From: Balneolaceae bacterium
GTDB taxonomy: Bacteria > Bacteroidota > Rhodothermia > Balneolales > Balneolaceae
NCBI GenBank assembly: GCA_020832285.1
Contig: JAFIFB010000085.1
Location: forward strand, 62,001-126,000
Length of the DNA: 64,000 nucleotides
Direction of reading: 5' to 3'
The notes below the pieces were generated by a model. It was not told the DNA's origin, did not search any database, and worked only from the letters and a program-made list of their open reading frames with translations. Made by a program: the position numbers and the translations under genes. How positions within the stretch are numbered: the first letter of the stretch is position 1; every line of letters starts with the position of its first letter. Below are positions 45,332 through 64,000 of this stretch, piece by piece.

Positions 45332-46348
45332 TTATAGCTGCGCGGGTTCTTTTGTGGAGCTTCTGATCATCAATTCCGGGTCCATAATCACCTGAACGGT
45401 TTCGCGGCCCGGATCATCAACCCGCTGGAAGAAGAGCTCGGCAGCCCTGCGCCCCATTTCGTAGGCGGGCTGCCGTATGACAGTAAGTGGCGGGCTGATC
45501 GCTTTGGCCCAAGGCATATCATCAAAACCTACAATGGAAATATCATCGGGAATTTTTAGCCCGAATTCGTTAATCGCTTCAAGGGCGCCGAGGGTCATCA
45601 GGTTGTTCGTTGCGAAAATTGCTGTGGGCCTGGGGTTTTGGTTCAGGAGTTCAAACGTAAGCTCTTTTGCATGCTCAGCGCTTTTGGTGTCCCCTTCCTT
45701 AATAAAATTTGAATTAACCGGAATTTGATGTTGGCTGAGTGCCATTTCGTATCCCTTTTGGCGATCTTCAAAAGAAGAAAAATGTGGGGCACTGGTCAGA
45801 ATAGCGATATGCTTATGCCCGAGACCAATCAGATGCGAAACCGCAATGTGCCCTCCCTTTACATTATCAACCACTACCGTATCAATCGATTCCCTTGTTA
45901 GTTTCCTGTCTACACAAACAATGGGTATACCAGACTCAATTAATCCTTCAATCACTTTTCCGTATTGGTGTATGGGCGGCAGGATCACTCCGTCAACAGA
46001 TTCGGAACGCAATACATCAAGGTAAAATTTCTCTTTGGCCGGATTTTCATCTGAGTTGCAGAGAATTACAGCATAGTTTTTTTGATAGGATACATCTTCG
46101 ATTCCTCTGACGATATTTGAGTAGAATTGATTTTTTATATCGGGAATAATAAGGCCCAGCAGCTTGGACTGACCTTTACTGGTTCGCAGGCGCTGAGCAA
46201 CCCTGTTCGGCTGGTACCCAAGTATTTTCATTGCCTGTTCTACCCTTTGGCGGGTTTGTGGATTCACTTTTTCCACATCATTCATAACCCGTGAAACGGT
46301 TGTAATAGAAACTTCAGCTTGTTTGGCGACTTCTTTTAAAGTTGGCAT
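45332..46348 (-). CDS. LacI-family transcriptional regulator, probable regulator of the inositol locus
   Basis: 338 residues. The N-terminal LacI helix-turn-helix and hinge are [33 protein letters not shown] followed by [15 protein letters not shown] periplasmic-binding-protein-like effector domain follows ([45 protein letters not shown]). It is divergent from iolE across a 219-base region holding two palindromic sites, one 18 bases from its own start, so it probably represses itself, iolE and the importer operon. The expected inducer is an inositol intermediate, by position only. Confidence 0.92.
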
Positions 46349-46366: not shown

Positions 46367-46380
46367 TGAAAACGTTTTCT
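46367..46380. promoter_or_regulatory. LacI-type operator O1, before the regulator gene
   Basis: TGAAAACGTTTTCT, with the perfect core GAAAACGTTTTC at 46368-46379, ends 18 bases upstream of the regulator's start. It shares the core with the sites at 46488 and, with one change, 57255. A central CG in an A/T-rich half-site pattern is typical of LacI/CcpA-type operators. Confidence 0.75.
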
Positions 46381-46487: not shown

Positions 46488-46505
46488 TATGAAAACGTTT
46501 TCATA
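46488..46505. promoter_or_regulatory. LacI-type operator O2, before iolE
   Basis: A perfect 18-bp palindrome, TATGAAAACGTTTTCATA, 62 bases upstream of the iolE ATG. A weaker inverted repeat, AGATCA-GT-TGATCT, lies just before it at 46468-46481. Confidence 0.8.
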
Positions 46506-46567: not shown

Positions 46568-47464
46568 ATGAAGATTGCAAACGCTCCCTGCTCCTGGGGA
46601 ATTCTTGAGTTCGGCCTGGATGGCAAAACAGACAGTTATGATAAAGTAATGGATGAGATGCTGGCCACCGGATATGATGGAACCGAATTGGGTGATTGGG
46701 GTTTTTTTCCCACAAATTCCGATGAACTTAAAGCCGAACTCAGTCACAGAAACCTCAACCTGGTGGGGGCATTTGTACCTGTAAATTTTGTTAATAAAAA
46801 CGATCATCAGGCTGGAGAAGAGCTTGCATTAAAAACGGCCCGGCTGATGCAAAATGCAGACCCCGAAAATGCGCGGATCGTTCTGTCGGATGATAATGGA
46901 AAAAACCCTATCCGAACAAAAAATACTGGCAGGATCAAACCTGAACATCAATTATCAGACTCTCAATGGTCTGTCTATGCTGCTGGAGCAGAAACAGTGG
47001 CTCGTCGTGTGTATGATGAAACCGGACTGAAATCGGTTTTTCATCACCATTGCGCCGGTTACGTAGAAACACCGGATGAAATTGAAGAACTCCTGAAGCG
47101 CACCGACCCCGAACTTCTTAGCCTATGCTTTGATACAGGCCACTACGCATTTGGCGGAGGCAATCCGGTTGACGGCTTGAAAAAATTTTACAACCGGATT
47201 GATCATGTCCATTTTAAGGACTGGGATCAAAATATTTTTTCAAGCGTCAAAGAAAACAGTTGGGACTATTTCGAAGCTGTTGGAAATGGAATTTTCTGTG
47301 AGCTTGGAAAAGGCTCCATCGACTTTCAGGCAGTGCTGAATGAACTGAGAAACCGGAACTACACCGGCTGGATAGTGGTGGAACAGGATATTCTGCCGGG
47401 GATGGGTTCTCCTAAAGAGAGCGCATTACGCAACAGAAACTACCTGAAATCACTTGGAGTCTGA
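46568..47464 (+). CDS. IolE-like inosose dehydratase / sugar phosphate isomerase-epimerase family
   Basis: 298-residue xylose-isomerase-like TIM barrel. NAPCSWGILEF near the start, GYDGTELGDWGFFP, FHHHCAGYVETPDE, LCFDTGHYAFGGGNP and DHVHFKDWD give the metal and substrate pattern of IolE, which dehydrates scyllo-inosose to 3D-trihydroxycyclohexane-1,2-dione. The pathway role rests on context: convergent with iolD, divergent from the LacI regulator, next to a full iol set. No signal peptide. The enzyme could instead be an inosose isomerase (IolI-like), but no other dehydratase candidate is present. Confidence 0.85.
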   Translation: MKIANAPCSWGILEFGLDGKTDSYDKVMDEMLATGYDGTELGDWGFFPTNSDELKAELSHRNLNLVGAFVPVNFVNKNDHQAGEELALKTARLMQNADPENARIVLSDDNGKNPIRTKNTGRIKPEHQLSDSQWSVYAAGAETVARRVYDETGLKSVFHHHCAGYVETPDEIEELLKRTDPELLSLCFDTGHYAFGGGNPVDGLKKFYNRIDHVHFKDWDQNIFSSVKENSWDYFEAVGNGIFCELGKGSIDFQAVLNELRNRNYTGWIVVEQDILPGMGSPKESALRNRNYLKSLGV

Positions 47465-47494: not shown

Positions 47495-49357
47495 TCAGAA
47501 ATAATTTCGCTGCTTTTTTCGGGCCTTTTCATACTCTTCTCTTGCCTTATTCACAGAATCAAGCTTTGAAACCTCGGCCACCGGAACATCCCACCAAGAG
47601 TTGTATCCCGGCACTTTCTGAGTTTTGTCCACAGATACCACAATAACCTGGGTTTGATCGGCCTTAATGGCTTTATCCAGTGATTCCCTCAGTTCATCGT
47701 ACGATTTGGCTTCATGCACTACCACACCATAACTCCTTGCATTCATTACAAAATCTGTCGGGAGATGGCTTCCCTCAAGCTGACCCGATCCGGATTTTCT
47801 GTAGCGGTAGTTAGTCCCGAAACCTTCCGAACCAACCGATTCAGAAAGTGATCCGATGCTCCCGAAACCGTGGTTATTTAACAGCACAATTGTGATTTTT
47901 ATACCTTCCTGAAGAGCTGTGGTTATTTCGGAAGATAGCATCAGGTAAGAACCGTCTCCCACCATCACAACGACTTCTTTTTCCGGCTTGGCCATTTTTA
48001 CGCCGATACCTCCCGCTATTTCATAGCCCATACATGAATAGCCATACTCAAGATGGTAACCTCCCGGCTCATAAGCTTTCCAGAGTTTGTGAAGGTCACC
48101 AGGCAGACTGCCGGCAGCACAAACCACAACCGACTCTTTTCCGGCAGCTTCATTAACTGTACGAAGTACATTGGGTTGCTGTAATTTATCGATCGACGGA
48201 ATGCTGGTCACACGGTCAATTTCCTCATCCCACCGCTCTTTTCTTTCCCCGATAACTTCGTCATATTTCTCATCGACATGAAAATCTCCCAGTGCACCTG
48301 ATAATAGCTGTAGAGTTACTTTAGCGTCACCTAAAAGCGGCAGTGAAGAAAGTTTATGAGCATCGAGCGAGCAGACATTAATATGGATAAATTTCACACG
48401 AGGATTTTGGAACTGGCTCTTGGATGAGGTGGTAAAATCGCTGAGCCTGGTTCCAATCAACAGAATTACATCAGCCTCTTCAGCGGTTTCATTCGCAGCG
48501 AGTCCACCCGTGGCACCGATAGAGCCAAGATTCTGCGGGTGATCGTGAGGAAGAGCACTTTTGCCCGCCTGTGTTTCCGCCACAGGAATTCCGGTCGATT
48601 CAACAAATTTTTTAAGTTCTTCCGTGGCCTCGCTGTAGTGAACACCTCCGCCGGCAATAATAAGTGGTTTTTCAGACTGTTTGATAACATCAGCGGCTTC
48701 TGAAAGTAGTGTCTCATCCGGGCGGTTACGGGGAATATCCCAGATTCTTTTCTCAAAAAGTTCCAAAGAGTAATCGTGTGCTTCGGTTTGTACATCCTGA
48801 GGCATACAGAGCGTTGCCGTTCCCGTTTCGGCCGGATTGGTGAGAACACGCATCGCTTCCAGCATAGACCAGGGAAGCTGGTCAGGCCGGTTGATCCGGT
48901 CCCAATATTTCGAAACGGGTTTAAAAGCATCATTCACCGATACATCCTGGCTGAGCGGGAATTCAAGCTGCTGGAGTACGGGCCCCACATTCCGGCGTGC
49001 AAAAATATCACTGGGAAGCAGTAAAAGCGGAATCCTGTTGATGGTTGCTGTGGCCGCCCCGGTAATCATGTTGGTTGAACCCGGTCCCACCGATGCAGTA
49101 CAGGCAAAGATTTGCAGCCTGTTTTTTGCTTTTGCGAAAGCTGTGGCGGTGTGTGTCATCGCCTGTTCGTTCCGGCATAAATAGTAGGGCATTTCGGGAT
49201 CTTCGTGAAGAGCCTGAGAAATTCCCGCCACATTGCCATGCCCGAATATTCCCCAGACGCCTTTAATAAACGGCTGTTCAATTCCATCACGCCGAACATA
49301 TTGATTTTTAAGAAAACGGATCAGTGCCTGAGCGGTTGTTAATTTTTTTGTATTCAT
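47495..49357 (-). CDS. iolD: 3D-(3,5/4)-trihydroxycyclohexane-1,2-dione hydrolase (IolD)
   Basis: 620-residue thiamin-diphosphate enzyme of the acetolactate-synthase fold that opens the inositol ring to 5-deoxyglucuronate. The N-terminal Pyr domain has the activating Glu in YLCRNEQAMTHTATAFAKA. A central Rossmann-like domain has ADVILLIGTRLSDF. The C-terminal PP domain has VMVGDGSYLMLSSEITTALQEGIKITIVLLNN, the GDG-to-NN ThDP-Mg motif. FGTNYRYRKSGSGQLEG is characteristic of IolD. It is separated from the rest of the iol operon by 435 bases with a small frame and a palindrome. Confidence 0.94.
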   Translation of the reverse strand: MNTKKLTTAQALIRFLKNQYVRRDGIEQPFIKGVWGIFGHGNVAGISQALHEDPEMPYYLCRNEQAMTHTATAFAKAKNRLQIFACTASVGPGSTNMITGAATATINRIPLLLLPSDIFARRNVGPVLQQLEFPLSQDVSVNDAFKPVSKYWDRINRPDQLPWSMLEAMRVLTNPAETGTATLCMPQDVQTEAHDYSLELFEKRIWDIPRNRPDETLLSEAADVIKQSEKPLIIAGGGVHYSEATEELKKFVESTGIPVAETQAGKSALPHDHPQNLGSIGATGGLAANETAEEADVILLIGTRLSDFTTSSKSQFQNPRVKFIHINVCSLDAHKLSSLPLLGDAKVTLQLLSGALGDFHVDEKYDEVIGERKERWDEEIDRVTSIPSIDKLQQPNVLRTVNEAAGKESVVVCAAGSLPGDLHKLWKAYEPGGYHLEYGYSCMGYEIAGGIGVKMAKPEKEVVVMVGDGSYLMLSSEITTALQEGIKITIVLLNNHGFGSIGSLSESVGSEGFGTNYRYRKSGSGQLEGSHLPTDFVMNARSYGVVVHEAKSYDELRESLDKAIKADQTQVIVVSVDKTQKVPGYNSWWDVPVAEVSKLDSVNKAREEYEKARKKQRNYF

Positions 49358-49793: not shown

Positions 49794-50732
49794 TTACTTT
49801 TTATGTATCAACTTTCCGATCGATTCGGCTACACTTCTGGGATCCTTCTGATTTGGATAAAGTACATTCCTTCCGAACATCGCACCTCTTACCTGGTGCC
49901 CGGAAGCGAGAGCCAATTCCAAATTGTTAAGCACATCCTTCAGCGGACTGTTTCTGTCACCGCCAAGAATAACAATGGGCAAAGTGGTAGAAGCTGCAAC
50001 AGTATGAAACTGCTCTGTATATGGAATTTTCAGCCATATATTCCGGCTGCTGTTACCAAGAGCGGACGTAACCGAAATAAGTTTGATCAGTGGCTCTGGC
50101 TCTTTCAACACAGCATAACCGTTCGTTGTTTTTTTCACCGGCAGCGGTTCGAGAAATATCGGCAAATGATACTGATTCATCTCTCTCACACCCTGTGCGC
50201 AGTATTCAATGGTTTTGAGTGAATCGTACTCAGCCAGATCAACTCTTAGCAGCATTTTGGCAGCATCGATTCCAAATTCCTTGCAGGTCCTCGCATCGGT
50301 TCCGGTAATAGGATCGTTCAGTTCCCACGCAGCTCCCGGTAGTCCGCCTCTGTTCAGGCTTGTAATCAGCAGTTTATCATCCAGGAACCCATCGTCTGAC
50401 TCATTCATTAATCCGTGTAAAATCAGAAGCTCTTCAAGGATGTCCATACTTCCGAGCACTCCGTCTACCCAGGGAGATTTGAGTGTACTGATTAGTCTTG
50501 CAAGCAAATCGTGACGGTTGGCCATAGCAAAAGGTTCATTCCCGACAGAAACACTGCCGCGCGCGGGATGGTCGGCCGCTACGATATTCAATTTGCCATC
50601 GGGCACAAATGTTTGCCGGCGTTTCCGTATTTGGGATGAATTCAGAGCAAAGTTTGGCTGTTCAACTCTTACTGTGGTAATTTGCTGAAAAAGTGTATGG
50701 GGAATTATATTTTCTTTATTAAATGAGTTCAT
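49794..50732 (-). CDS. Cgl0159-type (beta/alpha)8 aldolase-like protein of inositol catabolism
   Basis: 312 residues from ATG 50732, which follows a GGGAAAG ribosome site and lies 13 bases after the iolC stop; an upstream ATG at 50771 would overlap iolC. It has the DeoC/LacD-like barrel look: LNIVAADHPARGSV (catalytic-barrel strand), VDGVLGSMDILEELL, LLITSLNRGGLPG, IFLEPLPVK, IWLKIPYTEQF and PIVILGGDRNSP. Such Cgl0159-type proteins replace IolJ in several inositol clusters and probably cleave 2-deoxy-5-keto-gluconate-6-phosphate to DHAP and malonate semialdehyde. The reaction is inferred from position. Confidence 0.8.
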   Translation of the reverse strand: MNSFNKENIIPHTLFQQITTVRVEQPNFALNSSQIRKRRQTFVPDGKLNIVAADHPARGSVSVGNEPFAMANRHDLLARLISTLKSPWVDGVLGSMDILEELLILHGLMNESDDGFLDDKLLITSLNRGGLPGAAWELNDPITGTDARTCKEFGIDAAKMLLRVDLAEYDSLKTIEYCAQGVREMNQYHLPIFLEPLPVKKTTNGYAVLKEPEPLIKLISVTSALGNSSRNIWLKIPYTEQFHTVAASTTLPIVILGGDRNSPLKDVLNNLELALASGHQVRGAMFGRNVLYPNQKDPRSVAESIGKLIHKK

Positions 50733-50745
50733 ATTCTTTCCCTTT

Positions 50746-51762
50746 TCACAGGCCGCCTCTTTCATCCACAAATTCTTCTACTTCATCAAGTGTGGGCATA
50801 AAATTGGCGCAGCCGTGCCGGGTTACCACAATCGCACCGCAGGCATTCCCGAGGCGTGCTGATTTCTGCCACTTCCATCCCTGAAGGTGTCCGTAAATCA
50901 ATCCGCTCGCAAACGCATCCCCTGCACCCAATGTGTTTACAATATCCACAGGAAAACCGGGGGCGTGTTGTGGTTCTGTACCATCTGCAAAGTGAACGTA
51001 ACAACCTTCTGTGCCTGACTTTAAAAGCAGAACCTCAGCTCCTCTTGAAAAGAGCCGCCGGATACTTTCATCCAGATCAGCTTTCACTTCCGATTCGTTC
51101 ACTTGGGAATGGCTCACAACGGCTTCACCCTCGCCCATAAATGCACCCGCTTTTACCTCTTCAGATGTACCAATAATCACATCAACATATGGCAGAACCG
51201 AGCGGATCACAGTTCCGAACGTCTGAACATCGGGCCACTGATCAGCCCTGAAATCGATATCCAAAAACACCGTAATATTATTTTCCCGGGCAAGTTCAGC
51301 GGCCAAAATGGTTGCTGAACGGGAAGGTTCCAGGCTTAGGCCGGTCCCGCTGATCAAAACTGCCTTAAACGTATCAATGGGTATGTTTTGAACATCCCGG
51401 ATATCAATCGCGATATCTGCACAATTATCTCTGTAATAGACGAGAGGGAATTTATCGGGAGGCTCAATGCCAAGAATCACTGCACTGCTTCGCCGCCCCA
51501 TTTTTTTGGCTACGTAAGTCGTGTCCACGCCTTCTTTATTGAGGAAATGGAGGATAAAATCTCCGACCGGGTCAAACCCAACACCAGTCAGAAGGGATGA
51601 ATTGAGTCCTAGACGTCTTGTTCCCACACTGATATTAGTAGGGCAGCCTCCCACAAATGCAGAAAAGCTCCCGATTTCTACAAAAGGTTTGCCAATGTCG
51701 TTCGAATAGAGGTCAATGGAACTCCGCCCGATGCATAAAATGTCGTTTTGAGAGTGTGACAT
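50746..51762 (-). CDS. iolC: 5-dehydro-2-deoxygluconokinase (IolC)
   Basis: 338-residue PfkB/ribokinase-fold kinase that phosphorylates 5-keto-2-deoxygluconate. The N-terminal substrate part ILCIGRSSIDLYSNDIGKPF, GGCPTNISVGTRRLG and LTGVGFDPVGDF are typical of IolC. The C-terminal PfkB signature VDIVNTLGAGDAFASGLIYGHLQ carries the catalytic Asp. No fused DUF2090/aldolase domain, as in many proteobacterial IolC proteins; a separate aldolase gene follows. Start ATG 51762, 145 bases after iolB, with a hairpin in the gap. Confidence 0.94.
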   Translation of the reverse strand: MSHSQNDILCIGRSSIDLYSNDIGKPFVEIGSFSAFVGGCPTNISVGTRRLGLNSSLLTGVGFDPVGDFILHFLNKEGVDTTYVAKKMGRRSSAVILGIEPPDKFPLVYYRDNCADIAIDIRDVQNIPIDTFKAVLISGTGLSLEPSRSATILAAELARENNITVFLDIDFRADQWPDVQTFGTVIRSVLPYVDVIIGTSEEVKAGAFMGEGEAVVSHSQVNESEVKADLDESIRRLFSRGAEVLLLKSGTEGCYVHFADGTEPQHAPGFPVDIVNTLGAGDAFASGLIYGHLQGWKWQKSARLGNACGAIVVTRHGCANFMPTLDEVEEFVDERGGL

Positions 51763-51907: not shown

Positions 51908-52678
51908 TTACTGAAATTCGGGCTGGGTGTTTACATCTCCCCAAGAGCGTTCCATTGAGGGATCAAGCGTGGCCATAATCCAGACAAAATTGATCGGATG
52001 GCCCGGAATTGCCACGTTGGGATGATATCCACGTTTAATCACTACCGCATCATTTTCATAGACAGGACCAAGATATTCTGGATCTTCGAGGTCATCATAT
52101 ACAAGCTGAATTCCAAATGATGGCGGCGGCATCTCGAAGTAGAGATAAATTTCCTCTTTGGTGGCCGCGTGTTCATGCGGTGCCCAGCTTGTCCAGTTGC
52201 CATCTTTACTGAAGATGAGTCCGCCGAGCAGCCGGCTGGCGGGCACGTTTTCATCAATTAACCTGTGAATTTTACGGTGGCAGCCGTCGAAGCCCAGATC
52301 CTGCGTGAGTTCAGGGTCTTCATTCAGCACTTTAAATGGCACGAAAACCGGATCGCCTTCTTTGTCAGAAGGAGCGGTGCATTCAACAATATCGAGTGAG
52401 CTTTCGGTACGAATGGTTCCGCTCTGCCCGGGAGGAAGAAACAAGGTGTCGTATGGTTTCAGCGAAAAACTTTCACCGTTCAATTCAACAGTTCCTTCTC
52501 CTTTCATGCAGATCAGTCCGGCTTCGAATTTTGGATTTTGGTACTCCACTTCCGAAAGTTCGTTATCAAGAATTGTTCTGATATAACCCAATGCCTCCAG
52601 CTCTGAGTTTTCGGGTGTGATGATCCAGTTACGGCCTTTTTTGCTGCCTGTATTTTTAAAAATTACATTTTTTTTCAT
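51908..52678 (-). CDS. iolB: 5-deoxy-glucuronate isomerase (IolB)
   Basis: 256-residue double-cupin protein that isomerises 5-deoxyglucuronate to 5-keto-2-deoxygluconate. Family segments are EGTVELNGESFSLKPYDTLFLPPG in the first cupin and TSWAPHEHAATKEEIYLYFEMPPPSFGIQLVYDD in the second, where the HEH and Glu bind metal. VIKRGYHPNVAIPGHPINFVWIMA is also diagnostic. It starts 4 bases after the iolG stop in a tight operon. Confidence 0.94.
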   Translation of the reverse strand: MKKNVIFKNTGSKKGRNWIITPENSELEALGYIRTILDNELSEVEYQNPKFEAGLICMKGEGTVELNGESFSLKPYDTLFLPPGQSGTIRTESSLDIVECTAPSDKEGDPVFVPFKVLNEDPELTQDLGFDGCHRKIHRLIDENVPASRLLGGLIFSKDGNWTSWAPHEHAATKEEIYLYFEMPPPSFGIQLVYDDLEDPEYLGPVYENDAVVIKRGYHPNVAIPGHPINFVWIMATLDPSMERSWGDVNTQPEFQ

Positions 52679-52682
52679 CGGT

Positions 52683-53747
52683 TCAGCCTGCTGTTTTTTC
52701 TTTTAGGATTTCAGTTTTCAGCGCATATTCCATCGCCTTGTTATTGATGGTTACCGGTAGTTTCTGGTGAAGTGAAAAGGTTGCGGCATGTCCCACAAGC
52801 AGTGCTCTCTCGCCATCTTCGATGGTGACGGAAGGCGGCTGCTGGGTGTGTGCTTTCTCAACAAAATCTTTGAGTTGTGTTACATACGATTGTTCAAACC
52901 GTTCCATAAAAAAGGGAACAGTATCGTGAGTTACGCCCTCCTTTTTGAGTATGGTAATGGGTGTTTCCCGCAGATAACCGATCTGTATGGTTCCTTCGGT
53001 TCCGAGAATTTCCGTCTTGATGTCGTAACCGTAAATTCCGCTTCGGGTCATATCGGCTGATCCGATGGTTCCTGATTCGAATTCCAGGGAAACCACCGCA
53101 TTATCTATGTCGTTGATCGTTTTCATCTCCGGATATGCAAGGACATTGCCCACGGTATATACTTCGGCCACATCACCCATGAACCATCGCGCGAGATCAA
53201 AATCGTGAATTCCCATGTCCAGAAGCAGGCCGCCGCTCATTTTCGGGTCGGCATACTCCAGGCTGGGCCGGTACGGATCTCTGGAAGTGGCTTTAAAAAC
53301 AATCGGTTTGCCGATCTCACCGGCCTTTATTCGTTCCATGGCCGCTGCATATCCGCGGTCGAACCGCCTCATAAAGCCCATGTGAAAAAACAGGCCCGCA
53401 TTTGCGACTGCCTCTTTCATCTGTACGGCTTCATCAAGTGAGAGTGAGAGCGGTTTTTCACAAAAAATCATTTTCCCTTTTGCGGCCGAGTCAATCACAA
53501 TATCCCGGTGAGTGCTGGTTGGACTTACAATGACCACGGCATCAAGTTCTTTCAGTTCAAGCATATCCCGGTAATCAGCAAATCTGTGCATGATGCCAAA
53601 CCTTTCCCCGATTTCTTCGGTTTTTACCATATCGGCATCAGCAATGGCTGCAACATCAGCATCAGGAATCTGATATTGCAAATACTCAACATATAAACTA
53701 CCCAGGCGGCCGAGGCCTACCACACCGGTTTTCAATTTACTTTTCAT
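52683..53747 (-). CDS. iolG: Inositol 2-dehydrogenase (IolG)
   Basis: 354-residue Gfo/Idh/MocA-fold dehydrogenase oxidising myo-inositol to scyllo-inosose with NAD+. The N-terminal Rossmann motif is VVGLGRLGSLYVEYL, and FCEKPLSLSLDEA carries the catalytic EKP Lys. The C-terminal sheet domain has MGIHDFDLARWFMGDVAEVYTVG with a conserved His-Asp. The family also contains other sugar dehydrogenases; the position between the sugar-binding protein and iolB supports IolG. It starts 14 bases after the binding-protein stop. Confidence 0.88.
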   Translation of the reverse strand: MKSKLKTGVVGLGRLGSLYVEYLQYQIPDADVAAIADADMVKTEEIGERFGIMHRFADYRDMLELKELDAVVIVSPTSTHRDIVIDSAAKGKMIFCEKPLSLSLDEAVQMKEAVANAGLFFHMGFMRRFDRGYAAAMERIKAGEIGKPIVFKATSRDPYRPSLEYADPKMSGGLLLDMGIHDFDLARWFMGDVAEVYTVGNVLAYPEMKTINDIDNAVVSLEFESGTIGSADMTRSGIYGYDIKTEILGTEGTIQIGYLRETPITILKKEGVTHDTVPFFMERFEQSYVTQLKDFVEKAHTQQPPSVTIEDGERALLVGHAATFSLHQKLPVTINNKAMEYALKTEILKEKTAG

Positions 53748-53761
53748 GTAGTCTCCGTACG

Positions 53762-54721
53762 TTAGTCTTCTATGGTTTCTTTTGTGATCAGTTTAATTTC
53801 AATAGTAATATCTTGGGGGATTTCTTCACCGTTTAATAATTTATATGCATATTCCACACCGGCACGGCCTATCTCGTACGGGTTTTGTGCAATTGTTGCA
53901 TTCATGGTTCCCCTCCGGACAGCTTCAACCGCTTCACTGTGAGCATCGAACCCTACTACAATGATATCATCATAACTTCTGCCGCTTGATGAAATCGCCT
54001 CTACAGCTCCGAGAGCCATCAGGTCATTGGCGGCAAAAACTGCCTGCACATCCGAATAAGACTGCAGAATATTTTCGAATACGTTATAGCCCAGGCTTCT
54101 TTCCCAGTTGGCTGTTTGCGAGGTTACTATCTCGATTCCCTCAAATTCAGATAGGGCATCTCTGAAACCGCTTTGGCGTGAATCTGCCGTTTCATGACCG
54201 GGAATGCCCTCCAGAATGGCTACTTTGCCAGAACCGTTCAGCTGTTCCGCCACATACCGGCCGGCGAGATATCCGCCTTCGTAATTATCTGAACCGATAA
54301 ATGTGGCCACCTCTGCATTGTCTCTTGCAAGCAAGTCCGGATCCACTCGTGTATCAAGATTGATAATCGGGATCCCCACACGGTTTGCCCTGGAAATGAC
54401 GGGTACTACTTCGCGCGAGCCACTGGGTGTTAGGAGAATGGCATCTACTCTGCGCTGGATCAGGTTTTCCACGATCTGAACCTGCTGTTCCACATCCACT
54501 TCACGTTCGGCGGCCTGAACAATGAGGTTGATTTCAAGTTCGCGGGCCATATCTTCCGCTCCTTCCTGCATATCATTAAAGAATGGATTGTTCAGTGTTT
54601 TCACCACAAGTGCTACTGTAGGCCTGCCGGGGAATTCTTCACTGTAGCAACCCCACATGGGCAAAATGAGACCCAGAATGATCACAAATGCTGTAATTTG
54701 ATAGATGTTTTTTGATTTCAT
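53762..54721 (-). CDS. Sugar (inositol) ABC transporter substrate-binding lipoprotein
   Basis: 319-residue RbsB-type binding protein with two Rossmann-like lobes (PTVALVVKTLNNPFFNDMQEGAEDMA, ILLTPSGSREVVPVISRANRVGIPIINLDTRV, GFDAHSEAVEAVRRGTMNATIAQNPYEIG). The signal ends at Cys25 (LPMWGC), so it is a lipoprotein rather than a free periplasmic protein. Ribose and inositol binding proteins share this fold; its place before iolG makes myo-inositol the likely ligand. It begins 6 bases after the permease stop. Confidence 0.9.
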   Translation of the reverse strand: MKSKNIYQITAFVIILGLILPMWGCYSEEFPGRPTVALVVKTLNNPFFNDMQEGAEDMARELEINLIVQAAEREVDVEQQVQIVENLIQRRVDAILLTPSGSREVVPVISRANRVGIPIINLDTRVDPDLLARDNAEVATFIGSDNYEGGYLAGRYVAEQLNGSGKVAILEGIPGHETADSRQSGFRDALSEFEGIEIVTSQTANWERSLGYNVFENILQSYSDVQAVFAANDLMALGAVEAISSSGRSYDDIIVVGFDAHSEAVEAVRRGTMNATIAQNPYEIGRAGVEYAYKLLNGEEIPQDITIEIKLITKETIED

Positions 54722-54727
54722 AATAAT

Positions 54728-55681
54728 TTATGCTTTCGATTTTTTAAGATTTGTATCAAGCAGAATAGCCCCGATTATTACCGAGCCAATCACAATCTGC
54801 TGTATAAATGAAGAAACTCCAAGTAAGTTCAGGCCGTTGCGCAGCACCCCGATAATCAACGCACCAATGAGCGTGCCTACCACCGTTCCCTTGCCGCCGA
54901 AAAGACTGGTGCCGCCGATTACTGTAGCGGCAATAGCGTCCAGTTCGTACATAATTCCGGCAATGGGCTGAGCCGAATTGAGCCTGGCGGTAAGCATTAC
55001 TGCGCCGAGGGCACTGAGCAGCCCTGCAATTCCGTAAATGATATTCAGGTAAAGTTTGATATTGATACCCGACAATTTGGCCGCCTCTACATTGCCTCCA
55101 ATCGCATATGTGTAACGCCCCATCTTGGTTCGAGTGAGCACAAAATGGGCGATGGCATACACTACAACCATAATGATGACCGGCACAGGAATGTGAAATA
55201 TTTCACCATTGGCCAGAAACCGGAAACTGTCGTCAAACCCCGAAATCGGGCGGCCATCGGTGTACCATAAACCGGCTCCGCGGGCAATGCTCATCATACC
55301 GAGAGTTGCAATAAAAGGGGGTATGTTACCATATGTAACCAACAGGCCGTTTACCAGGCCGCAGGAAAACCCAACGGCAAAGCCCACAAGAATTCCCACC
55401 GGAATGGGTAAACCTGCATGAAGCACACTGGCCATCACCACTCCCGAAAATGCCAGAACCGAACCGACGGATAGGTCAATGCCTGCGGTAATGATCACAA
55501 AGGTCATACCCACTGAAATCACAGCAATAATGGCCGACTGCTGTGCCACATTCAACAGGTTTGAAGTGGATAGAAAATGCGGAGACAGGATCGTAAAAAG
55601 CACACAGAGGGCAATCAGCCCAAAGAGTGTTCCAAACTGCCTCATTTGCATAAAATCGAGATCTTTAAACAGAGATTTCAT
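54728..55681 (-). CDS. ABC transporter permease, ribose/inositol type
   Basis: 317-residue RbsC-like permease with eight to ten membrane segments. VISVGMTFVIITAGIDLSVGSVLAFSGV (about 52-79) and IAATVIGGTSLFGGKGTVVGTLIGALIIGVLRNGLNLLG near the C-terminus are diagnostic of carbohydrate-uptake transporter family 2. It overlaps the ATPase gene upstream by 17 bases, so the two are translated together. It forms the inner-membrane channel of the putative inositol importer. Confidence 0.93.
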   Translation of the reverse strand: MKSLFKDLDFMQMRQFGTLFGLIALCVLFTILSPHFLSTSNLLNVAQQSAIIAVISVGMTFVIITAGIDLSVGSVLAFSGVVMASVLHAGLPIPVGILVGFAVGFSCGLVNGLLVTYGNIPPFIATLGMMSIARGAGLWYTDGRPISGFDDSFRFLANGEIFHIPVPVIIMVVVYAIAHFVLTRTKMGRYTYAIGGNVEAAKLSGINIKLYLNIIYGIAGLLSALGAVMLTARLNSAQPIAGIMYELDAIAATVIGGTSLFGGKGTVVGTLIGALIIGVLRNGLNLLGVSSFIQQIVIGSVIIGAILLDTNLKKSKA

Positions 55682-57176
55682 ACGGCTCCCCCAACGCGTA
55701 TTTCATGATTTGCTCCTGTGTTGCTTTTTCACCCGGAATTTCGGCTTCAATTCTGCCGTCTCGCATCACCAGTATCCGGTCACTCATACCGAGGATTTCC
55801 GGCATCTCCGAAGAGATCATAATGATGGCGATTCCATTTGCAGTTAATTCATTCATAAGATGGTAGATTTCCGTTTTAGCCCCTACATCAATCCCGCGGG
55901 TTGGTTCATCGAAAATGAATATTTTTGCATCAGAACAGAGCCATTTACTGAGCACCACTTTTTGCTGGTTTCCTCCACTAAGGTTCACACAAAGCTTGTT
56001 TCTTGTAGGAGTTTTAATTTTCAGTTTGTCGATATATTCATCAACCACTGCATTTTCTTTTTTAAAGTTGATAACACCTCTCCGGAGAAACTTCCTGATG
56101 TTTGGCATAGAAATGTTTTGTTTAACCGGTAAATCCAGTACAAGCCCTTCATGTTTTCGATCTTCCGTCACCAACCCGATTCCGGCATTTATCGCATCCC
56201 GGGGTGATTTTAGTTCCAGTTTTTTACCATTAATTAAAATGGTACCGCTTTTTATAGTTTCCGCTCCAAAAAGTGTTTTGGCAAGTCTCGTACGTCCGGC
56301 TCCCATCAGGCCGGCGATACCCAGTACTTCCCCTGTTCTTAATTCGAAGGAGATATCTTTCAGCCGCTGTTCCACATTCAGGTTTTCAACCTTCAGAACT
56401 ACATCACCGACTTTTGCTTTCTGTTTGGGGATGTGATCATCCAGCGATCGGTTCACCATCATCTTAACCATATCGTTACGTGTTATTTCTGATGCAGGCT
56501 TCGTGCCGATGTATTGTCCGTCACGAAGAACAGTCACTCTGTCTCCGATTTCGAAAATTTCCTGGAGACGGTGAGAAATGTAAATAATGGCTACACCCTG
56601 CTTTTTCAAGTCAAGAATGGTCTGAAAAAGCGATTCAATTTCGTTGTTTGAGAGAGAAGCGGTGGGTTCATCCATGATTAAGATCCGGGCATCCAGCGAA
56701 AGAGCCTTGGCCACCTCAACCATCTGCTGCATGGCTACACCCAGCGATTCCACTTTCTGTTTTGCACTGATCTTTACGTTGAGCCCGTCGAGAATCGCCT
56801 GTGCATCCCTGTAAAGCCTGGGCCAGTTGATAACTCCCGGAAGGATGGCCGGTTCGCGACCCATAAAAATATTTTCTGCAACCGACATGTATGGATTCAG
56901 GTTAAACTCCTGATAGATGATACCGATGCCCAGCCCCTGTGCATTTGCCGGGGTGCCAATCTCAGTTTTTTTCCCGTTGATGTAAATATCTCCGCTGTCT
57001 TTGGAATAGGCGCCGCTCAGAATTTTCATCAGGGTGGATTTTCCCGCACCGTTTTCTCCGAGAAGAACATGAACTTCCCCCGGTTTCAGATCGAAATCTA
57101 CATCATCCAGAGCCAGCACACCCGGAAACTGCTTCCGGATTTTTTTCATCTCCAAAATATAATCTGAATCGGGCAT
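55665..57176 (-). CDS. ABC transporter ATP-binding protein with two nucleotide-binding domains, ribose/inositol type
   Basis: 503 residues with two ABC domains. The first has Walker A GENGAGKSTLMKILSG, a signature region GVAMQQMVEVAKAL and Walker B RILIMDEPTASL. The second (about 256-500) has a degenerate Walker A (GLMGAGRTRLAKTLFG), signature LSGGNQQKVVLSKWL and Walker B KIFIFDEPTRGID. This RbsA-like asymmetry is normal for the family. It is the first gene of the minus-strand importer-iol operon and has a LacI-type operator 79 bases upstream of its start. Confidence 0.94.
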   Translation of the reverse strand: MPDSDYILEMKKIRKQFPGVLALDDVDFDLKPGEVHVLLGENGAGKSTLMKILSGAYSKDSGDIYINGKKTEIGTPANAQGLGIGIIYQEFNLNPYMSVAENIFMGREPAILPGVINWPRLYRDAQAILDGLNVKISAKQKVESLGVAMQQMVEVAKALSLDARILIMDEPTASLSNNEIESLFQTILDLKKQGVAIIYISHRLQEIFEIGDRVTVLRDGQYIGTKPASEITRNDMVKMMVNRSLDDHIPKQKAKVGDVVLKVENLNVEQRLKDISFELRTGEVLGIAGLMGAGRTRLAKTLFGAETIKSGTILINGKKLELKSPRDAINAGIGLVTEDRKHEGLVLDLPVKQNISMPNIRKFLRRGVINFKKENAVVDEYIDKLKIKTPTRNKLCVNLSGGNQQKVVLSKWLCSDAKIFIFDEPTRGIDVGAKTEIYHLMNELTANGIAIIMISSEMPEILGMSDRILVMRDGRIEAEIPGEKATQEQIMKYALGEPYEISV

Positions 57177-57254: not shown

Positions 57255-57270
57255 ATGGAAACGTTTTCAT
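57255..57270. promoter_or_regulatory. LacI-type operator O3, before the importer-iol operon
   Basis: ATGGAAACGTTTTCAT is a 16-base palindrome with a single mismatch and matches the iolE operator in 15 of 16 positions. It lies 79 bases upstream of the ABC ATPase start and 134 bases from the 3' end of the phospholipase gene. Confidence 0.75.
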
Positions 57271-57403
57271 GAAACTATAATTAACTCATTCGCCATTGTC
57301 AAGCCTGTTTCGTTTAAGTTGTTACATCTTTCCGTAAAACAGGTTTTGAATCAGAAATTGGAGAAATAATCGGTTTCAGGCAAGATGCGGCGTCTTTTTG
57401 GTT

Positions 57404-58582
57404 CTATTCCGTAATCAAATGGTTTTCACAGCCCGGTGGTGCGCTTACCGGATTACATCGTGCAGGGCCTTCTGCCCCTGGCAACGCTACAATATAACCT
57501 GTCCCAAACGGGCTGGGCTCCGGGTAATCGGTACTGATATACTGAGCACCGCTATTAAGGGCGTTTTCACGGCGGGTGGTATCACCCGATATGGCTTCCT
57601 GCGCGGGAATGTCGGACCGGGTGCGGATCAGGTAACCTGCCTGAACCCGTTCATGAATCAATTCATACCCTTCGAGAGCGTTGTTCATTTTGATAAATCC
57701 TGCCGAGGGCTCGCCCGGTTCCGAGCTGGTAAACATCACCCTGTTTTCGAGAATTTCAGAACGCGAGAGATAGGCATCCCTGTGAGAGCCTTCATTATCG
57801 AGCATAAATAGAATACGGCCTCGGCTTTCGGCAAGTGTAGGCCATCCATCTGCGAGAATAGCTTCTTCAAGGGTTGTGTGGTTACCACGCACATCGTCGG
57901 GGGTGATCACGTGTCCCGGCTCAAAAACACTCCATATTTCATCATCAATGTCAAAAATGTTCCATTCATCCACACGAACAGCTTCCTGAAAAGTAAAATC
58001 TCCACGATCGTCGGGCGTGTTGTCTTTCACTTCGATTAAAATTGCGAGAGGAAGGTGGTCAGGATTGTTTAAAGACCATTGTCTGACTTCAAGGAGGCAG
58101 CTTTGCAGGGTCAGGCAGGTAGATCGATAATCGGTATCCTGCACATGCAATACTTTGTAACCGGGCTGATACATTTCATTGGGACGAATAAAGCGCTGGT
58201 CATCACTCTTAATCGCTCCCAGCGGTTCTGCAAATAGACCGCCATCTGGATCGGCAAAAATATCAAGTTCGATCTGACGGATCTGGAGTTCTGAAAACTG
58301 TTCGATCAATGGCCTGTGTTCATATAGAATACCGATCGCCCTACCCGGTGATTCTGCATTCATCAGCTTTGCAAGTTTTTCAGTGGGGGCCAGTTTATAG
58401 CTGTTATGTGTACCCAATACCTGAATTTGGTTCAGCCGGATGCAGTCATCAACGTTCTCTTCCGTAATTTCATCACAATCGTTTGCAGTTTTCTCAGATG
58501 AGGTAGTGTGAACATTCAGCCACAGTATGAAAAACGACATACAAAAACTGATCAGCAAATCTCTTTTTATGTGTATAAACAT
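57404..58582 (-). CDS. Secreted Ca2+-dependent phosphoinositide-specific phospholipase C (PI-PLC-C1-like)
   Basis: 392 residues. A signal peptide (about 1-28) exports it. The barrel shows the catalytic set of Ca2+-dependent (eukaryote-type and Streptomyces) PI-PLC: His59-Asn60 in VLGTHNSYK, Glu105 and Asp107 in RQIELDIFADPDGG, His146 in KVLHVQDTD, and Glu184 in LAILIEVKDN. These correspond in order to His311/Asn312, Glu341/Asp343, His356 and Glu390 of mammalian PLC-delta1, the acid-base pair and Ca2+ ligands. It should split phosphatidylinositol into diacylglycerol and inositol phosphate. Its location between a SusCD/lyase block and the inositol importer supports a nutritional role. Confidence 0.88.
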   Translation of the reverse strand: MFIHIKRDLLISFCMSFFILWLNVHTTSSEKTANDCDEITEENVDDCIRLNQIQVLGTHNSYKLAPTEKLAKLMNAESPGRAIGILYEHRPLIEQFSELQIRQIELDIFADPDGGLFAEPLGAIKSDDQRFIRPNEMYQPGYKVLHVQDTDYRSTCLTLQSCLLEVRQWSLNNPDHLPLAILIEVKDNTPDDRGDFTFQEAVRVDEWNIFDIDDEIWSVFEPGHVITPDDVRGNHTTLEEAILADGWPTLAESRGRILFMLDNEGSHRDAYLSRSEILENRVMFTSSEPGEPSAGFIKMNNALEGYELIHERVQAGYLIRTRSDIPAQEAISGDTTRRENALNSGAQYISTDYPEPSPFGTGYIVALPGAEGPARCNPVSAPPGCENHLITE

Positions 58583-58710: not shown

Positions 58711-60474
58711 TTACCCGATTTTTAATTGATGATGAAATGGGGTAAAACCGGTAAGATACACCCTGTATCCATCGGGCTGTATGCCACCGTTGTGAACGGT
58801 GTATTGTTCATTCGGCTGAGGCGGCCTTGTATGCTCTTTCAGGCCGGGGCCAAAATGGATGATATCGTTCCCAACCTGATATGACCCGTATCCATCCTTC
58901 AAAAAATAGGCATCCGGATCATTTTCTCCCGGAATAACACCAGTTAGTTCACCGCCTTTTCTGAAACATAATTCTACGGTTACAGGTACATTCTCAGTTT
59001 GATCCACAAGAAATTCCAGGTCAAAAGCTCCGTTTTCATCAATCTCTTTTATGACAACTTGCATTCGCAATACCATGTAATCTTTCGGGCGTTTTTCAAA
59101 TTCCATTTTACTGAAGAACCGTCCGTCGGGTGAAAGTTTGTATCTGCCGTCACGGTTTCTGTATTTGCCGGTAAGCGGCTGGTGATAGGCAACTTTACGT
59201 TCCTGTTTCAGGTGAAATGAATTATCAATAACTGTTAAACCATTACTTCTGAAATATCCTGTGGAAAAAAAAGCTGGTGACATCCGAACCGATTCAAGTA
59301 TGGCATCGCCTTTTCGAAATTTGAAAAATGTGGGATTGGTTGAAAGACCCGACCATGCACCATAGCCCAGATGCCAATCGGTCCCGCCAAAAACAGATGC
59401 TGTGGTTTCTTTTCTTCGTATTCGAATCAGGTCAGATCCCTTTAAATAATTGGAGTATCTATCAGGAAGCTTTTCAGGTTCAGGCAGAGGCTGGTTCAGT
59501 TCTTCATGCAGCAATAAATCGGGTAGTGCATCACTCAAATTAGAAATAAAATTCTCTTCGATATGTTTTGCAACTTCTGCAAAGTGCGGATTTTGGTCTA
59601 AGATTGCCATAAACCTGTAAGGGATGTAATAGCGGTGAATCATCACGTTACGGCCCGGGTCCTGATCTTGACGCCGCGATGCAACGGTTTCAACCTCACC
59701 ATTTCTTTCAATCAGATATAGAGTCATTTCCAGGTTTTTACGGATGTAATGAAGCAACTCCTCCCGTTTTAAAAGAATGGCTACATCTAAAAGCCCTTGA
59801 TTGTTTACAGCAGCATCATAATTCGGGCTTCGTTCGGGATGTTGTCCATCGGCATCCTGCCCGATTCCCTCGCCAAGCCAATCGTTTATTCTTTCGGGAT
59901 AGGCGGGATCGGGATAGAGTGTATGAACACCGGCAAGGGCTGCGCAAATTGCCCAGCGATGATTAGGCGTATGCACACCACCTTTAACCAGTGCATCAGA
60001 TGTATTAATAATAATGGTTTGCAGTAACTTTTGGAGGCTGTAGGTATGATCGGAGTTGTCATTTATCAGAAGTGCCTGTGCCCGCCATAACTGTTCTATC
60101 ATGAATGCGGAATCGGGCGGGGACTGAAGGTTGCCCGAATCGAACGTGCCATTTGGATATTGGTTTCGCAGCAGTACGGCGGCGATCTCTTCAAGGGGGC
60201 TAATCAGATTTTTATTCCTGAAATTATCCGACTCATTTGCGGAATGAGCAGCCGATAGAGCCAGTATAAAACCACTGAAAGAGCGGTTATGATTTCTTGC
60301 TTTAAGCTGTTCAAAATTATTCAACAGCTCCTGCACTCTCTGGTCGTTTACACGTGTAATAGAAGTGATGAGGTTTTGACTTTTTTGAGGCTTATGACCC
60401 ACAGAAGACTTGCCAAAGACCAGAACTCCCAAAGATGCACCGACTCCGCTTTTTAAAAATTCACTTCGTTTCAT
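58711..60474 (-). CDS. Secreted protein of unknown function resembling alpha/alpha-toroid polysaccharide lyases
   Basis: 587 residues. The N-terminus (MKRSEFLKSGVGASLGVLVFG) looks like an export signal of the Tat-like 'twin-basic' type, though it has KR instead of RR. About residues 45-320 are helical and have the segment HTPNHRWAICAALAGVHTLYPDP (Asn171-His172) and DADGQHPERSPNYDAAVNNQGLL (Asp209, Tyr219), an arrangement like catalytic Asn/His and Tyr residues of heparinase II/III- and alginate-lyase-like toroids. Residues about 340-587 are beta-rich, as in the sandwich domain of such lyases. No named family is certain. It lies between SusD and the phospholipase gene on the same strand. Confidence 0.65.
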   Translation of the reverse strand: MKRSEFLKSGVGASLGVLVFGKSSVGHKPQKSQNLITSITRVNDQRVQELLNNFEQLKARNHNRSFSGFILALSAAHSANESDNFRNKNLISPLEEIAAVLLRNQYPNGTFDSGNLQSPPDSAFMIEQLWRAQALLINDNSDHTYSLQKLLQTIIINTSDALVKGGVHTPNHRWAICAALAGVHTLYPDPAYPERINDWLGEGIGQDADGQHPERSPNYDAAVNNQGLLDVAILLKREELLHYIRKNLEMTLYLIERNGEVETVASRRQDQDPGRNVMIHRYYIPYRFMAILDQNPHFAEVAKHIEENFISNLSDALPDLLLHEELNQPLPEPEKLPDRYSNYLKGSDLIRIRRKETTASVFGGTDWHLGYGAWSGLSTNPTFFKFRKGDAILESVRMSPAFFSTGYFRSNGLTVIDNSFHLKQERKVAYHQPLTGKYRNRDGRYKLSPDGRFFSKMEFEKRPKDYMVLRMQVVIKEIDENGAFDLEFLVDQTENVPVTVELCFRKGGELTGVIPGENDPDAYFLKDGYGSYQVGNDIIHFGPGLKEHTRPPQPNEQYTVHNGGIQPDGYRVYLTGFTPFHHQLKIG

Positions 60475-60738: not shown

Positions 60739-62403
60739 TTAGTAACCAGGGTTTTGCTCAAGATAACCGGGCTCACCCTGAGCTGCATCAATAGCATTTT
60801 GCGGAATCGGGAAAACACGCTTTTGAACATCACTCACGGGTTTGTCTCTCCAGGTCCCTTCAGTATAGGTACCGAAACGGACCTGAATTGTTCGGGTCTG
60901 GTGTTCCTGATACATCTCAAAAATCCATTCACGCTGCAAGTCGCTCATTGTGCTCAATTCATTTGCAGATAACTGTCTGGAGCCACGTGCTGCCCGCACA
61001 GTGTTAATGTCATTCAGTGCCTCTCCCCAGTTACCAAGACGGGCATGGGCTTCGGCCCGAGACAGATACATTTCTCCAAGGCGGAACACAGGGATATTGA
61101 TAGAAGATTCACTTCCCTGGCGATATTTGTCATTATCCCATTTGATGGAACGGGCGCCAGCCAGGTGGCCACGGTCTGTTTCAAGACCCACTTCACGAGT
61201 ATAGATCATGGTTTGTCCGCTACGTGCGTTATCCACAAGTGGAAGAATCAACAAATTTCCATCTTCATCTTGCTGGTACACATTCGGCCCGCCGGTGTCC
61301 GGAACAATACCGTATTGCTGGCCAATCTGTACGCCACGATTCCAGCGGAATTCTTCAGCAGTAACAGAGCCTTCGTCCGGTATAAACCGATGGTAATAAC
61401 GCGGATCATCCCGTTCTCCTTCCCACATATCGTAAAATTCCTGGGTTAGTGCACCACCATCGGTACCTGTTTTACTGGTATGCCAGGGATTCCCATGCCG
61501 GTTTCTTGAGGAGTGAAAGTAAGACAAGCGGTGCCCGCCGCCTGTTTCGGGCTGCTGATTAAAGGCGAAGATAATCTCCGGATTTCCCTCATTCTCCTTC
61601 CCGAACAGGTAGAAATAGTTTTCATTTTCGAGCTGAAAATACCCGTCATTTATAAGCTGTGTAGCATTACTGATTACAGCCTGCAGAGTGGAAGGGTCGT
61701 GAGAAGGACTGGATGCGTACCGGTTATCATAGATGGCCCTGTTTAGCAGCAATCTTACTCTAAGTGCGATGGCGGCATCCCTGTTGAATCGTGTTTCATT
61801 CGCACTCGCTCGCGACAATTGTTCCTGAACGGCATCAAGTTCACCGAGAATGTAATCTACGGCTTCAGAATTTCTGTAAACAGTAGAAAGTGCAGGTGTA
61901 CCAATATCTTCCGGTCTTTTATCAAATACAACATTGTAAAGATCAAGTAACCAGTAGTTGTAGAGTGCTTTTAATGCCCTTGCTTCGGTAACGAGCCTCT
62001 GGTCGCCGCCAAGATTGGCAATAGTTTGTTCAGCAATAGCACCCCGGCCAACTCCCTGGGTTAAATTTTGCCACACACTGATAACGGTGGTATGCGTGGG
62101 TCCCCAGGAGTGCTGATGCATTTCTATGAACCGTCCGCCGTCGAACCAGTCGGTTCCTCCCCGGAAGGGTACAATCTGTTCTATGGATGAGACACCCTGA
62201 AGATTGTTGAACCAGTTATGTCTTTCCAGAGGTTCCAGCATTCGTTCATAAACAGGAGCCAGAATCTGTTCCGGAGCGTTTGGAGAATTCAGTGCTTCCT
62301 GTTGCAGGGCCGTATCTCGTACGGTTTCTCCAAGATCAGTACATGAGTACAGCAGAACTGCCATTAGGAGTAAACTTACTTTATTAAATAATAATTTTTT
62401 CAT
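60739..62403 (-). CDS. SusD/RagB-family outer-membrane nutrient-binding lipoprotein
   Basis: 554 residues. The lipoprotein signal ends at Cys21 (MAVLLYSC). SusD-like TPR helices and the conserved C-terminal RagB segment are visible: VPVFRLGEMYLSRAEAHARLGNWGEALNDINTVRAARG (written here as IPVFRLGEMYLSRAEAHARL), then LQREWIFEMYQEHQT, and ending in VFPIPQNAIDA. SusD covers its SusC partner and captures the oligosaccharide or other ligand at the cell surface. It starts 25 bases after the SusC stop. Confidence 0.94.
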   Translation of the reverse strand: MKKLLFNKVSLLLMAVLLYSCTDLGETVRDTALQQEALNSPNAPEQILAPVYERMLEPLERHNWFNNLQGVSSIEQIVPFRGGTDWFDGGRFIEMHQHSWGPTHTTVISVWQNLTQGVGRGAIAEQTIANLGGDQRLVTEARALKALYNYWLLDLYNVVFDKRPEDIGTPALSTVYRNSEAVDYILGELDAVQEQLSRASANETRFNRDAAIALRVRLLLNRAIYDNRYASSPSHDPSTLQAVISNATQLINDGYFQLENENYFYLFGKENEGNPEIIFAFNQQPETGGGHRLSYFHSSRNRHGNPWHTSKTGTDGGALTQEFYDMWEGERDDPRYYHRFIPDEGSVTAEEFRWNRGVQIGQQYGIVPDTGGPNVYQQDEDGNLLILPLVDNARSGQTMIYTREVGLETDRGHLAGARSIKWDNDKYRQGSESSINIPVFRLGEMYLSRAEAHARLGNWGEALNDINTVRAARGSRQLSANELSTMSDLQREWIFEMYQEHQTRTIQVRFGTYTEGTWRDKPVSDVQKRVFPIPQNAIDAAQGEPGYLEQNPGY

Positions 62404-62427: not shown

Positions 62428-64000
62428 TTAGAGTGTCAAATTGATTGAAAAGCTGACGGACCGGGCAGATGGATATCTCGAGCTGTCAATTCCCATCGAA
62501 CGGAAACCACCAACCGATCTCGGCCTGTCAACTTCAGGATCAAATCCGGGATAATCTGTGATTGTGAAAAGGTTGCGTCCGGTAACGGATAGTATCAAAC
62601 CGTTCACAGGAAGATTTATCGTGTTGAATGAATAACTCAGCGTTGCATTATTCAGCCGGAAATAACTACCGTCGTACACAAATCGTGAGGAAGCTGTGGC
62701 TGGATTGGTGGAGCCTTCATTTGGGTCGAAACCCACTCTTGCGATATTGTTACCAGCATAGAGCTGCGGCATATTGAAAAGGGCGTTATGGTCGTTCCAG
62801 TAAATCTTATTTCCGGATACGCCATTAAAATTCAGGCCAAGGTCCCAGTTTCTGTAACCCAGTCTGGCGGAGATTCCATACTCAAAGTCGGGGAGTGCGC
62901 TTCCTGGTGATACCCGGTCTGCATCCGTAATACTTCCGTCTCCATCTACATCTCTGAAGATGTTCTCACCATTTTCATCGAGCCCCTGGAATTCAAATAC
63001 CCAAAATGATCCAAATGGCAGTCCGTTTCTGAACACCTGAACGGTTTCACCTGAAAGGCCGCGGCCAGTGATGGAGCCTGTTCGGATCTGATCCACCGGC
63101 ATATTTCTGATTTCGTTGTCCAGGAAAGAGATGTTGCCTCCTATATCAAAACTGATGTCTGTTCCAAACTGCTGTCGGTATCTCAGATCCAGTTCAATCC
63201 CCTTGTTTACAACCTCCATATCATAATTGCTCCAGAATGAGCTGGTTGCTGCAATGGGATCTACACCGGTCGTGGTTTCGATGAGGATATCGCTTGTTAC
63301 TTTACGAAATACATCCATCGTACCGTAGAGTGCATCATTAAAGAAGGAGAAGTCCAGGCCGATATTGGACTGTGTGGACACCTCCCACCGGATGTTTTCG
63401 TTTTGTGTACGCACAAACGTGATACCTGGAGTGATGGAACCGGGGTTTAGCTGATAACCTGCCCGGGTGGCTACATTAATTCGCTGCTGGGTAATTCCAT
63501 CCGGAATATCCTGGTTTCCGGTTTGACCCCATCCGGCTCTCAGTCTCAGGTTCGAAAAGGTACTGCCCGACATGAAACTCTCATCAGTGATTTGCCATGC
63601 GGCTGAAAATGAAGGGAAGAATCCATAACGGTGATCATCACCAAATCGTGAAGATCCGTCGGCCCGCAATGTGGCGGTAAAAAAGTACCGCTGCAAATAG
63701 TTGTAATTCGCCCTGCCGAAGAAAGATTGCAGCTCGTTCTTGGCAGAAAAACCAGTGGGCAGATCGGCTGTCGTTACGTTTGACCCAATACCCGGGTTGT
63801 GGTAGGCATTGATCTCGGTTGTGGTAAAATCGCGTACGGCAAAGCTTCTTCCTTCACGCACAAACTGCTGATATGAGAATCCGGCCAGCAAGTCGATATT
63901 GTGATTCTCTAAAGAAGTAATGTAGTTAAGCGTGCTTTCTGTCTGAAACATGCTGTTTTCACGGTTGCCAAAATGGAAAGCTCCCTGGGGTGCAGCAATT
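62428..64000 (-). CDS. SusC/RagA-family TonB-dependent outer-membrane transporter, C-terminal part (5' end outside window)
   Basis: The frame is open to the right edge, so the signal, carboxypeptidase-like domain and plug lie outside. What remains is the second half of the barrel, with repeated amphipathic strands: SFSAAWQITDESFMSG, LRLRAGWGQTGNQDIPDG, LDFSFFNDALYGTMDVFRK, ISFLDNEIRNMPV, and the SusC-typical DVDGDGSITDADRVSPGSALPDFEYGIS. It ends in an aromatic/hydrophobic strand (SVSFSINLTL). It imports the ligand held by SusD using the proton-motive force passed by TonB. Confidence 0.93.
   Translation of the reverse strand, partial: IAAPQGAFHFGNRENSMFQTESTLNYITSLENHNIDLLAGFSYQQFVREGRSFAVRDFTTTEINAYHNPGIGSNVTTADLPTGFSAKNELQSFFGRANYNYLQRYFFTATLRADGSSRFGDDHRYGFFPSFSAAWQITDESFMSGSTFSNLRLRAGWGQTGNQDIPDGITQQRINVATRAGYQLNPGSITPGITFVRTQNENIRWEVSTQSNIGLDFSFFNDALYGTMDVFRKVTSDILIETTTGVDPIAATSSFWSNYDMEVVNKGIELDLRYRQQFGTDISFDIGGNISFLDNEIRNMPVDQIRTGSITGRGLSGETVQVFRNGLPFGSFWVFEFQGLDENGENIFRDVDGDGSITDADRVSPGSALPDFEYGISARLGYRNWDLGLNFNGVSGNKIYWNDHNALFNMPQLYAGNNIARVGFDPNEGSTNPATASSRFVYDGSYFRLNNATLSYSFNTINLPVNGLILSVTGRNLFTITDYPGFDPEVDRPRSVGGFRSMGIDSSRYPSARSVSFSINLTL

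Follow-up and report, generated by a model that had tools for sequence, protein, structure and literature searches.

A predicted LacI-type regulon ties a SusCD-linked, Ca2+-type PI-PLC to inositol catabolism in a Balneolaceae bacterium

We analyzed a 64,000-nucleotide stretch of a Balneolaceae genome, referred to as the window, which carries a PI-PLC gene (PLC) amid genes for nutrient uptake and inositol catabolism (iol). Reading against the plus strand, the gene order is SusC, SusD, a protein designated ALY and PLC, followed by an ABC importer and the iol genes. The features are as follows, all in window coordinates.

66020-65992, outside the window: predicted SusC promoter, TTGACA-17-TATAAT, 12 of 12 positions
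65975-65988, outside the window: predicted SusC operator TGAAAACGTTTTCA, palindrome scan
62428-64000, continuing to 65442 on the same contig, minus strand: SusC/RagA TonB-linked outer-membrane transporter (TIGR04056)
60739-62403, minus strand: SusD-like lipoprotein of the PLC-linked subtype (PF07980)
58711-60474, minus strand: ALY, 587-aa Tat-signal-like protein without a Pfam or PDB relative
57404-58582, minus strand: Ca2+-type PI-PLC (PF16670), 392 aa, signal-like N-terminus, with H59, N60, E105, D107, H146, E184 and also K186
57274-57302, minus strand: predicted promoter into the ABC-iol operon, TTGACA-17-TATAGT, from sequence
57256-57269, no strand: predicted operator TGGAAACGTTTTCA just behind the −10 element, palindrome scan
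55665-57176, minus strand: sugar ABC ATPase of a predicted inositol importer, profile search
54728-55681, minus strand: ABC permease (PF02653)
53762-54721, minus strand: ABC periplasmic binding protein (PF13407)
52683-53747, minus strand: IolG-like inositol 2-dehydrogenase (TIGR04380, 351 bits, narrowly under the cut-off of 355)
51908-52678, minus strand: IolB-like isomerase (PF04962; TIGR04378 well under cut-off)
50746-51762, minus strand: IolC, 5-dehydro-2-deoxygluconokinase (TIGR04382, over cut-off)
49794-50771, minus strand: putative IolJ-type aldolase, from weak class-I aldolase matches and its place in the operon
47495-49357, minus strand: IolD (TIGR04377, 908.6 bits, cut-off 715)
46568-47464, plus strand: IolE-like inosose dehydratase (TIGR04379, 210 bits, below the cut-off of 290)
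46490-46503, no strand: predicted operator TGAAAACGTTTTCA in the LacI/IolE gap, palindrome scan
46367-46380, no strand: second operator TGAAAACGTTTTCT, one mismatch, 19 bp ahead of the LacI start, palindrome scan
45332-46348, minus strand: LacI-family repressor predicted to act at all three sites, profile match

The PLC open reading frame matched a single Pfam family, PF16670 (PI-PLC-C1), across 329 of 329 positions (E = 6.7e-115; 384.1 bits against a curated cut-off of 29.9), and this full-length match bears out the family named in an earlier sequence-only reading, which had called the product a secreted PI-PLC. That reading had also claimed a complete eukaryote-type catalytic set, and His59-Asn60, Glu105-x-Asp107, His146 and Glu184 were all found where it had placed them. 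Across 22 aligned homologues drawn from several phyla, His59, Asn60, Glu105, Asp107 and His146 were invariant, together with Lys186, whereas position 184 was Glu in 17 homologues and Asn in five. Five invariant residues point to a catalytic set that is more than chance, with a relaxed sixth position, so the claim holds for this protein and loosens at Glu184 among its relatives. A separate alignment of PLC copies from the window's own phylum contained one member with Lys at position 105. Its bearer is the second, tandem PLC of the congener G332 (L056:8682-9941), in which Lys replaces the Ca2+-ligand Glu105, and this copy may be altered or inactive. PLC copies of several congeners have lipobox-like N-termini, and secretion of PLC is predicted. 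From these sequence features, we infer an exported PI-PLC that would be active and would require Ca2+.

We modeled PLC using AlphaFold2 on the 22-row alignment (pLDDT 92, pTM 0.87). The top four structural matches were all solved Ca2+-dependent PI-PLCs (Z 22.8–24.4), among them 5FYP from Pseudomonas sp. (Z 24.4) and 3H4W from Streptomyces antibioticus (Z 22.8); mammalian PLCs came next (Z about 16–18), followed by the metal-independent enzymes of Listeria, Staphylococcus and Bacillus (Z 15–16). Sequence profiles recovered the same two bacterial enzymes. In the comparison that the earlier reading had proposed, with PLC-delta1 and the Streptomyces enzyme, mammalian PLCs scored about 17 beside the 22.8 of 3H4W. 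Its remark that the Ca2+-dependent type is known from Streptomyces agrees with that match but was too narrow, as a Gram-negative enzyme has been solved (5FYO/5FYP/5FYR) and PF16670 is widespread. The high-confidence model and the fold match, rather than measured distances, suggest that the six named residues meet in space.

Among the known enzymes, 5FYP aligned over 251 residues (rmsd 3.0), and in 5FYO an HN motif stands opposite His59-Asn60 and the helix-strand core also aligns; the Pseudomonas sp. enzyme differs in its 19% identity and in being about 90 residues shorter, and no link between it and an inositol regulon was found in the literature examined. In S. antibioticus PI-PLC1, His37-Asn38 aligns with His59-Asn60, a Glu stands opposite Glu184 and residues 60–62 make up an ELD motif, whereas identity is 21%, the organism is Gram-positive and SusCD is lacking. 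Mammalian PLC-delta1, -beta and -gamma have the TIM-barrel type and catalytic set in common with PLC, but their PH, EF-hand, X/Y-split and C2 architecture is absent from the 392-aa protein, in which PF16670 alone was matched. As an enzyme, PLC is a further member of a known family that is common in Gram-negative bacteria, and PF16670 was found in 578 stretches of the genome collection. Its closest relatives beyond Balneolaceae are gammaproteobacterial (Pseudohongiella and others, 52–56% identity, L082-L086), which suggests horizontal transfer of PLC.

Adjoining SusC and SusD genes beside ALY and PLC form a SusCD-type utilization locus. We predict that SusC, SusD, ALY and PLC constitute one operon ending in PLC; the limits of the transcription units are tentative, given the gaps of 228 bp between PLC and the ABC genes and of 128 bp, with a weak hairpin, between ALY and PLC. 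The SusC leader is about 530 nt long from predicted promoter to start codon (L031 5443-5990, outside the window); an Rfam search for a riboswitch in it returned no match, and no convincing small ORF was found there. Searches of Pfam, NCBIfam and PDB sequences found no relative of ALY, which occurs in 13 of the 394 genomes of the phylum sample. Its low-confidence model (pLDDT 44) has a helical N-half and a beta C-half. Assignment to a known lyase was rejected, with no profile, PDB-sequence or usable structural support and a model too poor to search. The neighbors of ALY or its relatives elsewhere include GH88, PL9-like protein, GH28, DUF4861, GH92 and metallophosphoesterase genes, and these neighbors and the two-half model hint at a putative polysaccharide lyase. 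The neighbors of ALY (window 58711-60474, L065-L071) suggest a new lyase family.

On the other side of PLC, IolG, IolE, IolD, IolB and IolC occur together as an inositol-catabolic operon; the IolG, IolE and IolB matches fall below their cut-offs but are placed in the operon. A probable IolA, 63% identical to that of a congener, is encoded on a different contig. The genome has five LacI-type matches, of which the cluster's own scores best and is the sole one nearby.

A palindrome behind the ABC-iol promoter prompted us to scan the genome for TGRAAACGTTTYCA. Across 5.33 Mb it occurs in exactly three places, in the LacI/IolE gap, ahead of ABC-iol and ahead of SusC, compared with a dinucleotide expectation of 0.29. 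The ABC-iol and SusC sites follow near-perfect σ70-type promoters at spacings of 4 and 3 bases, respectively. One palindrome is thus common to the regulator and its target operons, as in a LacI regulon, with binding predicted. Allowing up to two mismatches, we found 21 sites among 6.8 kb upstream of the congeners' operons versus 8 in 165 kb elsewhere, while resampled upstream regions held a mean of 0.2 sites and a maximum of 2; as the congener regions were picked after some sites had been seen, the effect size carries more weight than the P value. Exact or near sites precede both the PLC-SusCD and the iol operons in four of five PLC-positive congeners; in the congener G108 the operator was not found, although both gene sets are present. 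SusC in our genome has CCA-adding-enzyme-like, IspE-like and glycogen-phosphorylase-like genes on its flank, and these genes border the iol operon in G332 and G119; the PLC cassette of our genome is thus placed between iol and this border. In those two congeners the cassette lies on another contig, yet it bears the operator. These sites predict a conserved LacI-type regulon that ties the SusCD-PLC locus to inositol catabolism. In a further congener, the iol region (L159, G199:C85, 428-11510) includes a SusCD pair of its own as well as a 502-aa PHP-like protein that matched no Pfam family, and exact operators stand at positions 2215 and 10308.

Across the 394-genome phylum sample, PF16670 was present in 28 genomes and true IolD in 18. 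Within the genus, PLC and IolD were both present in six of ten genomes and both absent in four; congeners are of common ancestry, and this concordance does not represent ten independent events. Outside the genus, none of the 22 PLC-positive genomes of the sample had IolD over cut-off. Inositol use is therefore not a general PLC role, and we rejected a general PLC-iol association beyond the genus. The SusCD pairing is broader: of 30 loci, 20 had SusC and SusD close to PLC and 11 had a 650-aa metallophosphoesterase there. The genome-wide best match to this SusD was a PLC neighbor in 16 of 25 other PLC-positive genomes, which suggests that a PLC-specific SusCD type exists.

We consider it likely that the locus serves the utilization of inositol phospholipids, with PLC as the entry enzyme, co-regulated with inositol catabolism. 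By the established mechanism of the fold, His59 would activate the inositol 2-OH for attack on the phosphodiester, assisted by His146 and by a Ca2+ with Asn60, Glu105, Asp107 and Glu184 as its ligands. Cleavage would release (cyclic) inositol 1-phosphate from the lipid portion, which would be diacylglycerol or another lipid. With the substrate trimmed by PLC, and perhaps also by the lyase-like ALY, the head-group product would cross the outer membrane via SusC/SusD, a putative phosphatase would free inositol, and the ABC importer would take it in for degradation by IolG, E, D, B, C and J. At both operons, and likewise at the LacI gene, TGAAAACGTTTTCA is the predicted binding site of the LacI-family repressor. 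Such binding would let inositol, or a product of its breakdown, induce lipid attack together with sugar catabolism.

Bacterial PI-PLCs have mostly been discussed as virulence or phosphate-scavenging enzymes. Were the second role to apply here, SusCD-PLC would win phosphate from lipid head groups under phosphate control, and the proximity of iol would be incidental. Precedent comes from the phosphate-starvation locus PUSI of Flavobacterium johnsoniae, in which a SusCD-like pair (PusCD1) adjoins a PF16670 PLC, as here, and which is induced by Pi depletion (PMC8115612); flavobacterial loci in our analysis share this layout and include FecI/FecR-type genes. PUSI also includes a metallophosphoesterase, whereas no such phosphoesterase was found in our genome and the operon instead bears the operator of the iol cluster. 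Sister loci in the genus bear phosphoesterases of several kinds, with the PUSI-type metallophosphoesterase in four of five PLC-positive congeners, and their metallophosphoesterase (MPE) and PHP genes are both missing here. The operator, seen in this genome and in four congeners, goes beyond mere proximity, and the co-occurrence of PLC and IolD within the genus also speaks against phosphate scavenging, which we regard as unlikely. The locus is best read as what may be a carbon-side variant of PUSI.

A second proposal refines inositol-phospholipid utilization rather than opposing it. The substrate might be a glycosylated inositol phospholipid, such as plant or algal GIPC or mannosyl-PI, whose glycan would be trimmed by ALY, as a new uronate-lyase family, or elsewhere by GH92 mannosidases, before PLC cut off the lipid; SusCD would import the glyco-inositol phosphate, and one LacI would couple these steps to inositol catabolism. 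The neighbors of ALY and its relatives listed above fit this proposal, as does the GH92 that accompanies PLC in Rhodanobacter, Granulicella and Caulobacter RHG1. Set against them are an ALY with no detectable relative of known function, the poor confidence of its model, its restriction to so few genomes, and the absence of both GH92 and GH88 from this locus. We hold the refinement tentatively, as an improbable one.

A reading of PLC as a virulence or membrane-attack factor, modeled on the virulence role of metal-independent PI-PLCs in Listeria and Bacillus, is very improbable indeed: the gene context gives it no support, a nutrient operon in a predicted inositol regulon opposes it, and the relatives are environmental (names point to sediment MAGs) in a family widespread among free-living bacteria. 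The sequence-only reading had likewise preferred nutrition to virulence, having merely hinted at the wiring to inositol catabolism.

For inositol-phospholipid utilization, the conserved operator that places a PI-PLC in a predicted inositol-catabolic regulon makes a role in carbon nutrition testable, and it could serve as a DNA signature in searches for similar loci. The locus also suggests lipid head groups as the cargo of some SusCD pairs. The enzyme family is already known; the locus is new as a SusCD-PI-PLC variant tied to inositol catabolism, and a search of the literature open without subscription found no paper joining PI-PLC with iol catabolism. Two further loci link PLC with inositol genes separately. 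In Rhodanobacter sp. OK091 (L140), PLC is surrounded by iol genes, together with two GH92 enzymes, a TonB receptor and a PHP-like protein; the PLC of the Granulicella tundricola plasmid NC_015057.1 (L176) has inositol oxygenase, GH92, a LacI regulator and a putative TonB-type receptor as neighbors. The occurrence of such linkages in both Gammaproteobacteria and Acidobacteriota suggests repeated origins of the strategy. In Hymenobacter, the arrangement is SusCD-PLC-CehA/McbA with phosphatases.
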